A DNA stretch of 49,293 nt from Gammaproteobacteria bacterium (lineage in GTDB: Bacteria; Pseudomonadota; Gammaproteobacteria; GCA-001735895). Shown in pieces: positions 36,528 through 43,706 of this stretch. The stretch spans positions 1 through 49,293 of the forward strand of contig JACNJF010000101.1 of assembly GCA_014382695.1 (NCBI GenBank), read 5' to 3'. Numbering within the stretch: the first letter of the stretch is position 1; each line of letters opens with the position of its first letter. A program made the position numbers and the translations under genes. Under the pieces are notes generated by a model, which saw only the letters and a list, made by a program, of their open reading frames with translations, did no database searches and was not told the DNA's origin.

Positions 36528-36541
36528 TTGATACATATCAA
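36528..36541. promoter_or_regulatory. Perfect FNR/Anr-type binding site
   Basis: TTGATACATATCAA matches TTGAT-N4-ATCAA at every fixed position. It is centred about 103 bases before the hydrogenase-like start codon. Oxygen-sensing FNR/Anr regulators activate most such promoters when oxygen is low. CRP sites (TGTGA) are not matched. Confidence 0.75.
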
Positions 36542-36637
36542 TTTCCCCCCACTATTTTTGAATTGCACTGGCTGCGAATTTATTGTCGGACGTAGAATGG
36601 TGACAGCTTCAGATACCGGTGTTCAGGGAGGTTTGCG

Positions 36638-37831
36638 ATGTCGCAACGGAGTCGTTTCGATGATTATCTTGTTCAACAGGGCGTAAGTCGGCGCGCGTTT
36701 ATCAAGCTCTGTAGCTCGCTGGGTAGCCTGCTTGCCCTTCCAGCCGCTGCGCTACCGGCACTGGCTGATCAGTTACGTCAGGCCCGTCGTCCTGTGGTGA
36801 TCTGGCTATCCTTTCAGGAGTGCACCGGTTGCACCGAGTCTTTCACCCGATCCCATAGCCTGACCCTTGAAGACCTGATATTTAACTATCTGTCGCTGGA
36901 TTATCACCATACCTTACAGGCTGCGGCTGGTGAAGCGGCAGAAGCGGCCAGGCGAAGCAGTATGCAGCAGCATTATGGAAAGTATCTGTTGATCGTCGAA
37001 GGCTCGATTCCGCTCGGCTATGGCGGTGCCTGTTCGACTATTGCCGGTAGAACCAATCTGGATCTGTTGCAGGAATGCACGGCTGGCGCCGCTGCAGTGA
37101 TGGCGATTGGCAGCTGTGCAGTGTTTTCAGGCTTGCCGGGTGCCGCGCCCAACCCGACCTCTGCGACCGGTGTTGCGGACCTGATGCAGCAGGGATTGAT
37201 AGCGCTCAGGCCAATGGTGAATATTCCTGGTTGTCCTCCGCTACCAGTAGCGATCTCTGCGGTGCTGGCCCATTTTCTACTCTTCGATCGTTTCCCGCCG
37301 GTTGATGAGCTGGGAAGACCGCTCAGCATTTATGCCGAAACGGTGCATGATCGCTGTTCACGCGTGCATTTTTTCGAGCAGGAAAAATTCGCTTTAAGCT
37401 TCGATGATGAAGGTGCTCGTAAGGGCTGGTGCCTGTATAAACTCGGCTGTAAAGGACCGGTTACGCACAATGCCTGTGCGGTATTGAAATGGAACAAAAA
37501 GACCAGTTTTCCGGTTCAATCCGGGCATGGCTGCCTGGGCTGTTCGGAACCCGGTTTCTGGGATAAGGGTGGTTTTTACCGTGCGCTGGATGATGTCGCT
37601 AGCGGTTACAGTCCCCCCGCTATCGCTCACGATACGGCGATCAGCGAAGGTCAGCAACTGTATGAAACTAACTGTGTTTACTGTCATGCGGCGAATCCTG
37701 CGCAGTTAAAAACACCGGCTGAAAAAGTGACGGAGGTTTTACGTTCCAGCTCCCTGCGTGCGCATAGGAACCTGCAGTTTTCAGCGCATCAACTGGATGC
37801 ACTGGCGCGTTACCTGCAGTCAAAAAAATAA
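36638..37831 (+). CDS. [NiFe]-hydrogenase small subunit fused to a cytochrome c domain (orphan)
   Basis: 397 residues. Tat signal SRRAFIK (17-23). The small-subunit body keeps all cluster ligands: proximal C62, C65, C160, C199; distal H237, C240, C265, C271; medial C280, C299, C302. Residues 64 and 165 are Gly, so the extra two cysteines of oxygen-tolerant enzymes are missing. The usual C-terminal membrane helix is replaced by a monohaem cytochrome c domain, CVYCH (346-350). That domain has no Met after the haem motif; H376 or H384 may be the sixth ligand. No large subunit or maturation gene is nearby. GGGAGG precedes the ATG. Probably a periplasmic electron relay. Confidence 0.9.
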   Translation: MSQRSRFDDYLVQQGVSRRAFIKLCSSLGSLLALPAAALPALADQLRQARRPVVIWLSFQECTGCTESFTRSHSLTLEDLIFNYLSLDYHHTLQAAAGEAAEAARRSSMQQHYGKYLLIVEGSIPLGYGGACSTIAGRTNLDLLQECTAGAAAVMAIGSCAVFSGLPGAAPNPTSATGVADLMQQGLIALRPMVNIPGCPPLPVAISAVLAHFLLFDRFPPVDELGRPLSIYAETVHDRCSRVHFFEQEKFALSFDDEGARKGWCLYKLGCKGPVTHNACAVLKWNKKTSFPVQSGHGCLGCSEPGFWDKGGFYRALDDVASGYSPPAIAHDTAISEGQQLYETNCVYCHAANPAQLKTPAEKVTEVLRSSSLRAHRNLQFSAHQLDALARYLQSKK

Positions 37832-37841
37832 GGAGGCGAGA

Positions 37842-38225
37842 ATGAATTTCAAAAAATGGCTATGGGAAGTATCGATGATCACCCTGCTTGGCGTTAGCTT
37901 TTCAGCGCTGGCAGAACAGGGTTCGAGTCCAGCACATAGAGCATCAGAGTTGTCGAGGGCAGCACCGCTATCCAGAGTCTTTTCAGTGCATGATAGCGAT
38001 CTCAATGGACTGCTTGATCGTGATGAATATGAACGCTTGGTCGAACAGCTGGAAACGCGCAGATTGCATCGAAATCAGTCGCCCCGGCATAAGTTTCAAC
38101 CTTTGCAGTTCGAGCAGATCGACAGCAATCAGGATGGCGTGCTGAGCGAGGATGAAATGGTGGATGCGCTGAATGTCAGATTGCAGCAACAGCGGCGACA
38201 GCGCTATCGCGGCGAGCGACCGTAA
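37842..38225 (+). CDS. Secreted two-EF-hand calcium-binding protein
   Basis: 127 residues. Signal peptide 1-24 (NFKKWLWEV, hydrophobic core, ALA). Two EF-hand loops: DSDLNGLLDRDE (51-62) and DSNQDGVLSEDE (94-105), both with Asp at 1 and 3, Gly at 6 and Glu at 12. The C-terminus is Arg/Gln-rich. AGGAGG six bases before the ATG is a near-perfect ribosome binding site; a longer frame from 37758 lies in the previous gene and is rejected. It is only 10 bases after the hydrogenase-like gene, so almost certainly co-transcribed and possibly a partner or docking protein. Confidence 0.88.
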   Translation: MNFKKWLWEVSMITLLGVSFSALAEQGSSPAHRASELSRAAPLSRVFSVHDSDLNGLLDRDEYERLVEQLETRRLHRNQSPRHKFQPLQFEQIDSNQDGVLSEDEMVDALNVRLQQQRRQRYRGERP

Positions 38226-40711: not shown

Positions 40712-41215
40712 TTAATGCTGATTGATAGTGGTCGGAAAGGTAACCGGGTTTAACGGTTCCAGTTTCTGGGTTTCAGACACTTCTTCAAAGATCGCGCGTA
40801 GATCGCTTTCCCAGCGAGCAAACTGAACCGCCAGTTCTTCAGATGGGAATAGCGGCGATAGAGTTTCAGGATTCATCGCGACGATCAGGACGGTCTCCTT
40901 TTCCTGCATGATAGCTATTTTTATCGGCAGATAGGGGATCAGCTCTGGATAAGTTGCGGTAAGATGACGCATCTCTTCAAACTTTCCGAAGAAAATAGAT
41001 TTATAAAAATCAGTCTTATAGCCTGAGTCACTCAGGCCGGTATCGCATTTTTGAATGTGGGCCACCTTGTAGCCATAATCGTCCAGTTTTTCCTTGATCA
41101 GTATCATGGTGTTATCGAAGCTGTGACTGACACGTAGCATGATCATGTTTTCGGCCTGCGCGGGCGACCAGCACAGCATCAGGCTGAGTAAAAATAACCC
41201 CGGATACTTTTTCAT
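40712..41215 (-). CDS. Secreted DUF302 protein
   Basis: 167 residues. Signal peptide 1-21 (LSLMLCWSPAQA). DUF302-like domain: SHSFDNTMILIKEKLDDYG and an AHIQKCDTGL segment with one cysteine (C57 region). Probably periplasmic. It starts in an ATGA overlap with the cytochrome-DUF302 gene, so the two are coupled. DUF302 is an alpha/beta fold of unknown function common in sulfur bacteria. Confidence 0.8.
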   Translation of the reverse strand: MKKYPGLFLLSLMLCWSPAQAENMIMLRVSHSFDNTMILIKEKLDDYGYKVAHIQKCDTGLSDSGYKTDFYKSIFFGKFEEMRHLTATYPELIPYLPIKIAIMQEKETVLIVAMNPETLSPLFPSEELAVQFARWESDLRAIFEEVSETQKLEPLNPVTFPTTINQH

Positions 41216-42249
41216 AAGGTTGCCTCGTCAATCAATTCCATCAGTTTCAGGTGCATCTTTTCGGCAGCCTCTGTCAGCTGCGCATTATTAAATACTCGGG
41301 AAACGACTTTCATATTCATGACGTACAGTTTGACCTGACCATCATCGCCTTCAACTACGGTTACGCTGCAGGGTAAAACCACACCGAGTCGAGGTTCGAT
41401 GTTAATCATTTCGTATAACAGGTTAAAGTTGCAGAAACGCAGGGATAGCTGTTTTTTATTCACTTCCTTGTCATCGATCAGACCCATTTCCATATAGCGG
41501 TCAGGAAAATAGCGGAAATTAAGGCCCTGCAGACTGCGCTTAATATTGCCGATAGTGGTGGTAAAGTCATACGGCGAGTCGAAGATCAGGGTCGGTTTTT
41601 CATCCTGATGTTTTTCCAGAGGTGCACTCTGCGCTTCGAAACTACGCAGATAGCTGACGATATTATCCACTTCGGTATTAGACAGCTTGAGTTTTTTCTG
41701 TGAAGGCATGATGGTCCCGGCTCGACCATTCACGACGGTATGTCGTATCCATTGGTCATTCGCCGCACCAAGAAATCCGGGATTATTCAGCGCCGGTGGA
41801 ATGACCTGGAATTCACGTTCTCTGGATAACGAAACGCCAGTACCGATACCTTCGCTTTTACCATCCATGCCATGACATTCGGCACAGTGATGCTCGAATA
41901 AAAGCTTGCCGCTAACCGGGTTGCCGTCTACCGGCGTGTCACTGAAAACAACTTCGATGGTGGTTTTTTTCCAGCTTAGCAGATAGTCGACAATCGCATT
42001 CACCTGCGCATCACTCAGCTTCTTGAAGGCGGGCATGACGCGCCCTTCACGGCCCAGGCGAATAGTTTTTAATAGATAGTCACGCGGGAAGGATTCGACC
42101 TTGTAGCTGTTCAGGGGCAGGCCAATACCGCCGATGCCATTTTCGTTATGGCACACGGAGCAATGTTTGGTATACAGCTTAAGTCCGTCCGGTGCCGCAT
42201 GGACGGAGCCAAAGGCTGCCAAGCATATAAGTAAAAGTAATTTTCGCAT
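41212..42249 (-). CDS. Dihaem cytochrome c fused to a DUF302 domain
   Basis: 345 residues. Signal peptide 1-18. Two cytochrome c domains: CSVCH (30-34) with distal Met near M72, and CAECH (122-126) with distal Met near M181. A linker of about 20 residues leads to a C-terminal DUF302 domain (about 218-345) with two cysteines. Periplasmic electron carrier. ATG 42249 is chosen because it starts the signal peptide (MRKLLLL); the longer frame to 42306 overlaps the promoter. Same transcript as the second DUF302 gene. Confidence 0.88.
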   Translation of the reverse strand: MRKLLLLICLAAFGSVHAAPDGLKLYTKHCSVCHNENGIGGIGLPLNSYKVESFPRDYLLKTIRLGREGRVMPAFKKLSDAQVNAIVDYLLSWKKTTIEVVFSDTPVDGNPVSGKLLFEHHCAECHGMDGKSEGIGTGVSLSREREFQVIPPALNNPGFLGAANDQWIRHTVVNGRAGTIMPSQKKLKLSNTEVDNIVSYLRSFEAQSAPLEKHQDEKPTLIFDSPYDFTTTIGNIKRSLQGLNFRYFPDRYMEMGLIDDKEVNKKQLSLRFCNFNLLYEMINIEPRLGVVLPCSVTVVEGDDGQVKLYVMNMKVVSRVFNNAQLTEAAEKMHLKLMELIDEATL

Positions 42250-42278
42250 TAGCCGATTGAATAATTGAATATTAGCGT

Positions 42279-42306
42279 ATTCTAATTCTTTATATCGTTT
42301 AATCAA
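42279..42306 (-). promoter_or_regulatory. Candidate promoter of the cytochrome-DUF302 operon
   Basis: On the minus strand: TTGATT (42306-42301), 16 bases, TAGAAT (42284-42279, 5 of 6). About 30 bases before the ATG at 42249. Confidence 0.45.
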
Positions 42307-42416: not shown

Positions 42417-43619
42417 TTAACCAGGGCTTCCATCGACTCTGGGGCGAGTCAGGAAGGCCGCGTTTGACACCACAAAAAGACTGAAGCTGATGATCCACAG
42501 CAACTGGGCGAGTAAAATCCAGCCCATATAGTAGGCTGGCAGTAAAGCCGGACCGAATACGCGAATAATTGCGCCGATGACCAGCAGGGTCTGTGCAATG
42601 CTAATCCAGCATGATGGCTGCTGAATGTTGCGCCCGGTATGACCCAGGGTGACGCGGGACATCATCGAAATCGTGATCAGGGCAATACCACCAAAGGCAA
42701 ACGCGTGATACGCCATGGAGCGGCTGATCGATGCACTATAAGGCAGTAAGGCAAACAGTAGCAGGCCGATCGTGATGGAAACAAAGGCACCATACAGGCC
42801 CCACAATAAGGGTTTGCTCCAGAGTCCCCGGGTATGCCAGTGGTAGAGGCGGATAGCGGAAATCACCACCAGGATCGCGGCAAGATAACTGCTAATGGCG
42901 GATTCGGTGAAAAACACTTCACCGATAGCAAAGGCGAGAAACACGAACAGACTGCTGAGATCCAGCCAGCGTGGATTTTTCAGCTGCACAGGATAGCCCA
43001 CCCCTTTTTCGATAAAGAACGGGATCACGCGTCGGCCCATGTTGAACACCAGCGCGATGAGTAGCATCAGGCCGCCATAGATGCCCCAGTCAACGCCGTG
43101 TTCCAGCAGGCCCAGCGCACCCAGATAGAATAGTCCGTTAAACAGCCCCAGCAGTAATATCTTCGAAATGATGCCGAGCTGCTTCCATTGCTTCACACGC
43201 ATCACCGGTTGCAGCATGGCAATCACCAGCAGCAGGTTGAAGCTAAGGTCGAGAATAGCCGCCAGTAGCAGTAAATCGGTTCCAAACAGCAGGCATAAGC
43301 GAGCACCCAGCCATAACGAAAACAGCAGCATCAGAGGGCGATGCTGTATGGTCTGCACCGAAGTCCAGTTCTTGATCGCGGTTAACAGGAAGCCCGCCAC
43401 TACAGACAGGGTGAAACCGTAAATCATTTCATGCGCATGCCACTGGAAGGGGGCTAGACCACTCAGCGGAAAAGGCATGGAAAAGCTAAATATAGCCATC
43501 CACATCGCCATGCTAAGCACGGCAAAAACGCCGGCTGCCAGAAAGAACGGTCTAAAACCGAGTACAAACACACTAAAAGCCGTGTCTTTTGGAGGGTCCT
43601 GGATGTTAAGTATGGCCAT
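42417..43619 (-). CDS. nnrS: NnrS family haem-copper membrane protein
   Basis: 400 residues, about twelve membrane helices. NnrS motifs are clear: GFRPFFLAAG near the N-terminus, WHAHEMIYGF with the paired histidines, and GRRVIPFFIEKG mid-protein. NnrS proteins bind haem and copper and are linked to NO metabolism or nitrosative stress; members are often FNR- or NsrR-regulated. I chose ATG 43619 over TTG 43631. It lies upstream of the cytochrome-DUF302 operon on the same strand, with ~165 bases and a separate promoter between. Confidence 0.92.
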   Translation of the reverse strand: MAILNIQDPPKDTAFSVFVLGFRPFFLAAGVFAVLSMAMWMAIFSFSMPFPLSGLAPFQWHAHEMIYGFTLSVVAGFLLTAIKNWTSVQTIQHRPLMLLFSLWLGARLCLLFGTDLLLLAAILDLSFNLLLVIAMLQPVMRVKQWKQLGIISKILLLGLFNGLFYLGALGLLEHGVDWGIYGGLMLLIALVFNMGRRVIPFFIEKGVGYPVQLKNPRWLDLSSLFVFLAFAIGEVFFTESAISSYLAAILVVISAIRLYHWHTRGLWSKPLLWGLYGAFVSITIGLLLFALLPYSASISRSMAYHAFAFGGIALITISMMSRVTLGHTGRNIQQPSCWISIAQTLLVIGAIIRVFGPALLPAYYMGWILLAQLLWIISFSLFVVSNAAFLTRPRVDGSPG

Positions 43620-43706
43620 AGTATTCAGCAATCAAAGTTGAACCGAGAGTATAGCAAATTTATCATCAGACCAGCGTCTGCTTATCCTTGGCAGTCGGCG
43701 GGTTAT

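Follow-up and report, generated by a model that had tools for sequence, protein, structure and literature searches.

We describe a gene that joins the small subunit of a [NiFe]-hydrogenase to a cytochrome c (HynS-cytochrome c fusion; positions 36638-37831, + strand, of the window, the whole 49,293-nucleotide stretch analysed), and we consider it probable that its product serves as an alternative small subunit for the single group 1e large subunit (HynL) of the cell, delivering electrons to periplasmic cytochromes c and not to the Isp/membrane route. This reading is favoured because the fusion co-occurs with group 1e hydrogenases, nests within group 1e and is one of two 1e-type small subunits set against one HynL; because its electron-exit loop has changed while the rest has been kept, with FNR-type boxes before both the fusion and the 1e operon; and because hynSL operons that lack Isp, in genome G170 and on the Alteromonas plasmid pAM1A3, carry cytochrome genes.

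The 'orphan' small-subunit gene is an intact open reading frame for 397 residues, preceded by a Shine-Dalgarno-like GGGAGG read directly from the sequence (36626-36631, +). It begins with a Tat signal peptide region (36638-36772, +; S17-R18-R19-x-x-x-K23, ending near A45), followed by a small-subunit part (36782-37585, +; residues 49-316) assigned to the group 1e type by phmmer (E 1.5e-113 against HydA, 3MYR) and by phylogeny. Pfam recognized Oxidored_q6 at residues 62-212 (E 2e-26) and NiFe_hyd_SSU_C at residues 232-312 (E 6e-30), the NCBIfam hydA model TIGR00391 gave 364 bits, and the protein scores above the cut-offs of all three small-subunit models, PF14720, PF01058 and TIGR00391. The sequence-only reading had held that the Tat signal and all eleven iron-sulphur ligands are kept. 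This was borne out well beyond the window: the 11 ligands of the proximal, medial and distal clusters (C62, C65, C160 and C199; H237, C240, C265 and C271; C280, C299 and C302) are invariant in 14/14 fusions, and S17, R18, R19 and K23 of the Tat motif, which reads SRRxFxK in the window, are unchanged across the 14 homologues. Its statement that the C-terminal anchor has given way to haem c likewise stands, as the hydrophobic helix that ends canonical small subunits is missing (maximum KD 0.3 versus a canonical mean of 1.8) and a haem domain occupies its place.

This monohaem class I cytochrome c domain (37637-37828, +; residues 334-397) was recognized by Pfam, alignment and predicted structure, the Pfam match to Cytochrome_CBB3 (residues 334-393, E 2e-4) being under the Pfam cut-off. 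It carries a CxxCH haem motif (CVYCH; 37673-37687, +; residues 346-350) in which both cysteines and the histidine are invariant, and a further histidine, H376 (37763-37765, +), is invariant in all 14 fusions and in a free-standing relative. Because H376 lies near the usual place of the methionine of class I cytochromes, and the fusions have no conserved Met, the fused haem is predicted from its sequence to be bis-His ligated and probably of lower potential. An AlphaFold model of the domain is a small cytochrome (pLDDT 85) whose structural neighbours are c-type cytochromes at moderate similarity (Z ~7), among them copper nitrite reductase-cytochrome c fusions; a Foldseek search with the same model gave no significant match (best E 0.66). 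The full-length AlphaFold model, built from 14 rows, had a pLDDT of 61, falling below 40 in most of the stretch from residue 234 to 331, and was set aside.

The closest free-standing relative of the haem domain is a secreted cytochrome c in genome G170 (L205, 9286-9540, -) with the same CxxCH...H signature. A haem-domain profile built without this protein gave it 51 bits, compared with at most 30 bits for other cytochromes in the loci examined. Its gene adjoins hynD in a hynSL operon without Isp1/Isp2; the same operon has a 96-amino-acid hydrophobic open reading frame between hynS and hynL. Another Isp-lacking hynSL operon, that of Alteromonas plasmid pAM1A3, has a cytochrome c3-family gene, and the family of its product rules out this 'cyt' gene (PMC3102683) as the same cytochrome. 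A cytochrome c is found in both of these operons, and the fusion supplies the equivalent in one chain.

A search for further copies returned 13, giving 14 copies in 13 genomes with the window included. Full-length fusions were found in Sedimenticola selenatireducens DSM 17993 (L107), a Sedimenticola thiotaurini MAG (L054), four other MAGs (L053, L055, L056 and L068) and six further genomes of the class (G183, G390, G404, G130, G253 and G171). G044 holds, besides L068, a second pair of fusion and EF-hand genes at L248 (6852-8406, -), with 81% identity in the small-subunit part. The spread of the fusion is patchy, as 398 genomes sampled across the phylum yielded no additional fusion and seven other genomes of the window's genus are without it. 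Plasmid records contain 1e-type small subunits, and among the matches listed none extends to the haem domain.

Ten base pairs downstream of the fusion lies a gene for an EF-hand protein with an N-terminal hydrophobic signal (37842-38225, +; Pfam EF-hand_7, E 1e-9), whose Shine-Dalgarno AGGAGG overlaps the stop region of the fusion. Neither this gene nor the group 1e operon and hyp genes elsewhere in the genome had been mentioned in the earlier reading. An EF-hand gene directly follows the fusion in 14/14 loci, and in a class-wide sample strong matches to the EF-hand protein profile (>80 bits) occurred only in fusion-carrying genomes. What the protein does is a guess, a Ca2+-binding accessory or docking partner in the periplasm being probable. 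The fusion may be able to persist without this companion, because at one locus (G390; L194, 8650-9114, -) the EF-hand gene has decayed to a frameshifted remnant while the fusion is intact. Beyond the EF-hand gene the flanks vary by lineage, except for an NnrS gene common to G183 and G390, where it follows the EF-hand gene (L193 and L194); this hints at a link to NO or denitrification in that lineage only. In the window, the gene for an NnrS-like protein (42417-43631, -) neighbours one for a two-domain cytochrome c that carries DUF302 as its tail (41212-42306, -). A general association with NnrS was considered, the gene in the window lying 4 kb off on the opposite strand, and is not claimed because NnrS is missing from the other fusion loci examined.

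In a maximum-likelihood tree of the small-subunit part, comprising the 14 fusions and 62 canonical group 1e sequences, the fusions form one clade (100/96) within group 1e, and the tree thus shows a single origin for them. Selection on the fusion is purifying, as the sequence-only reading had proposed: dN/dS is around 0.08-0.17 across the hydrogenase part and, for the haem domain, 0.1-0.3, as estimated by a simple method with dS saturated in some pairs. That reading had also envisaged an ordinary hydrogenase fragment, either with a large subunit still adjacent in close relatives or as a frameshifted remnant. No large subunit adjoins the fusion at any of the 14 loci, and the gene shows no frameshift or decay, which excludes both cases. 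The branches of the fusions are longer than those of canonical small subunits, and constraint is therefore somewhat relaxed.

The changes are not spread evenly along the protein. Canonical 1e small subunits share 94 positions with a conservation of 97% or higher, of which the fusions retain 83 and have lost 11. Six of the 11 losses fall within residues 236-249 (37343-37384, +; hypergeometric P 1e-4, scan permutation P 0.001), where Y241 is changed to S, R243 to V/Y/L and G249 to E, among others, so that the canonical TIHDRCYRRPFYxxG reads TVHERCSRYHFYxxE in the fusions. This remodelled loop holds the distal-cluster ligands H237 and C240, and the distal cluster is the electron exit of the subunit. 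Outside it, the fusions retain 79 of 84 canonical-invariant positions (94%), the same level as in a comparison clade of bona fide, mainly alphaproteobacterial HynS (107/113). Losses clustered at the distal loop, with such retention elsewhere, suggest that the face towards the large subunit has been retained and the electron exit rewired. By alignment, position 243 of the fusion corresponds to R193 of Escherichia coli Hyd-1, the replacement of which by Leu is reported to retune the potential of the distal site and shift catalytic bias (PMC5708363).

A search of the whole genome of the window (G000) for large subunits and hyp genes placed the former on contigs C51, C88 and C121 and the latter on C121; the contig of the window has no [NiFe] large subunit, in agreement with what had been noted for the window. 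Contig C51 carries a full group 1e operon (HynD, a HyaE-like gene, HynS, Isp1, Isp2 and HynL). On C121 are a 1c-type HybOABC set, HupUV and the hyp genes, and C88 has HoxYH, of group 3 type. The genome therefore encodes a single 1e large subunit and two small subunits of 1e type, which share 60% identity; it holds four hydrogenases in all (1e, 1c, HupUV and group 3) and has about 39 cytochrome c domain matches. Neither hynL nor isp1/isp2 adjoins the fusion gene in the window or at any other fusion locus. The description of the fusion as a 'self-contained' electron wire was thus too strong, since a fusion without a large subunit has no catalytic site of its own.

Of 369 genomes sampled from the class, 42 have a canonical 1e small subunit; the fusion was present in 7 of these and absent from the other 327 (P 1.5e-7; P ~1.5e-5 when five families were each counted once). 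When the MAGs and the isolate found separately are included, a group 1e operon occurs elsewhere in 12 of the 13 carrier genomes, counting G253, in which the contig breaks off within isp2, before any HynL. The searches of G042 and G044 detected one group 1 large subunit in each, the 1e HynL. The exception, G043 (L056), is a 2.0 Mb Burkholderiales MAG with no group 1e HynL, in which a group 3-type large subunit, a HupK-like gene and hyp genes were found; incompleteness of this genome is a possible cause. The sequence-only reading had offered either a large subunit encoded far away or a non-hydrogenase partner, and these data clearly favour the former over the latter. A separate group 1-like large subunit at L145 (genome G041, contig C53) has a single in-frame TGA at a codon that specifies Trp in L139 of S. 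selenatireducens; a point nonsense mutation or a mistake in assembly is the probable cause.

The fusion and the 1e operon are neighbours in no carrier, and balanced expression of the two would therefore need regulation. A perfect FNR/Anr-type box, TTGATACATATCAA (36528-36541, +), lies 96 bp before the start codon of the fusion; no second perfect TTGATN4ATCAA occurs in the 49 kb window, where 0.14 were expected by shuffling. Elsewhere in this genome, the group 1e operon is preceded by a perfect FNR-type box about 60 bp before hynD. At the other fusion loci the box is perfect in L107, has one mismatch in L054 and is weak or absent in the remainder; convincing boxes (at most one mismatch; background 2.1%) are thus present in only 3/14.

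Taken as an alternative small subunit for HynL, the fusion would work as follows. At low oxygen, an FNR/Anr/Dnr regulator would switch on both the 1e operon and the fusion gene. HynL, matured by the Hyp/HynD machinery, would bind either its own HynS or the HynS-cytochrome c, the Tat signal would export the resulting pair, and haem c would be attached in the periplasm. Electrons from H2 could then run from the proximal through the medial and distal clusters to the fused haem and on to soluble cytochromes c, bypassing the Isp1/Isp2 membrane module. We infer from sequence both the pairing in trans with HynL of contig C51 and, within this scheme, the electron acceptor and the role of the EF-hand protein.

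Several findings weigh against an alternative small subunit for HynL: G043 has no 1e HynL, the fusion branches are longer, the boxes are convincing in so few loci and the fusion is never beside the 1e operon. The fusion might instead act without any large subunit: as an independent Fe-S/haem carrier in the periplasm, or as a docking hub there, it would pass electrons from the complete 1e hydrogenase, or from another donor, to cytochromes c. None of the 14 copies adjoins a large subunit, the 1e HynL was not found in one carrier genome and a conserved EF-hand partner stands in place of the large subunit, all of which would fit such a carrier. Its strong co-occurrence with group 1e would not, nor would the retention of 94% of the invariant positions outside the exit loop, including the half around the proximal cluster, which is of use only to the large subunit's active site. 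We therefore regard a stand-alone carrier as unlikely. To the same idea in evolutionary terms, a small subunit that left the hydrogenases and, with its EF-hand partner, became a periplasmic relay of three clusters and a haem with no [NiFe] large subunit, we likewise attach a minor probability.

That the fusion partners 1c HybC, HupV or a group 3 large subunit in place of the 1e HynL might be supposed from the three additional large subunits in the window's genome; it is improbable, as the small-subunit part nests in group 1e and G042 and G044 offer no group 1 large subunit other than the 1e HynL. HupUV and group 3 enzymes are, moreover, cytosolic, whereas the fusion bears a Tat signal. A part in redox or H2 sensing, in which the EF-hand protein would be the signalling partner, would agree with a gene set apart from structural operons and accompanied by a small accessory protein. 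However, the fusion loci show no consistent linkage to a sensor, kinase or regulator, and a periplasmic haem c outlet seems better suited to electron transport, making a sensor very improbable. A decaying or misassembled piece of a duplicated hydrogenase operon could explain why the operon is missing and why the seven congeners lack the fusion, but it is already contradicted by the 14 loci, the low dN/dS (well below 1) and the invariance of 11/11 ligands and the haem motif. The same fusion and neighbour recur in independent assemblies from several families, including the isolate S. selenatireducens DSM 17993 and the single-contig genome G171, and we give decay or misassembly almost no weight.

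Compared with known systems, the fusion most resembles group 1e HynS/HydS of Allochromatium vinosum (3MYR) and Thiocapsa roseopersicina, with which it shares about 60% identity, the Tat signal, the same three clusters and a 4-Cys proximal site, and within which its clade nests. Unlike these, it has no adjoining HynL/Isp1/Isp2, a cytochrome c domain for the C-terminal helix, a rewritten distal-cluster loop and an EF-hand neighbour. The Isp-lacking hynSL operons of Alteromonas macleodii pAM1A3 and of G170 (L205) similarly combine a 1e-like small subunit with a c-type cytochrome, but there the cytochrome has a gene to itself (of the c3 family in Alteromonas) and the operon also encodes the large subunit. 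A class I cytochrome c tail on a periplasmic redox protein is also found in copper nitrite reductases that end in a cytochrome c (2ZOO and others), yet their catalytic part is unrelated; the HynS fusion has no active site of its own, and its sixth haem ligand is predicted to be His and not Met.

To our knowledge, alternative small subunits sharing one large subunit are undescribed. In the openly licensed literature neither such a fusion nor an alternative small subunit was found described, which is not proof of novelty; one report on Thiomargarita (PMC4853749) concerns unrelated hupSL genes. The natural change at the position of Hyd-1 R193, together with a built-in haem outlet, offers a testable model in which the exit site sets direction and partner choice, and the cultured carrier S. 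selenatireducens DSM 17993 makes the idea accessible to experiment. If the reading is true, one catalytic hydrogenase subunit would be served by two wires, and the cell would choose between the membrane Isp route and the periplasmic cytochrome c pool.
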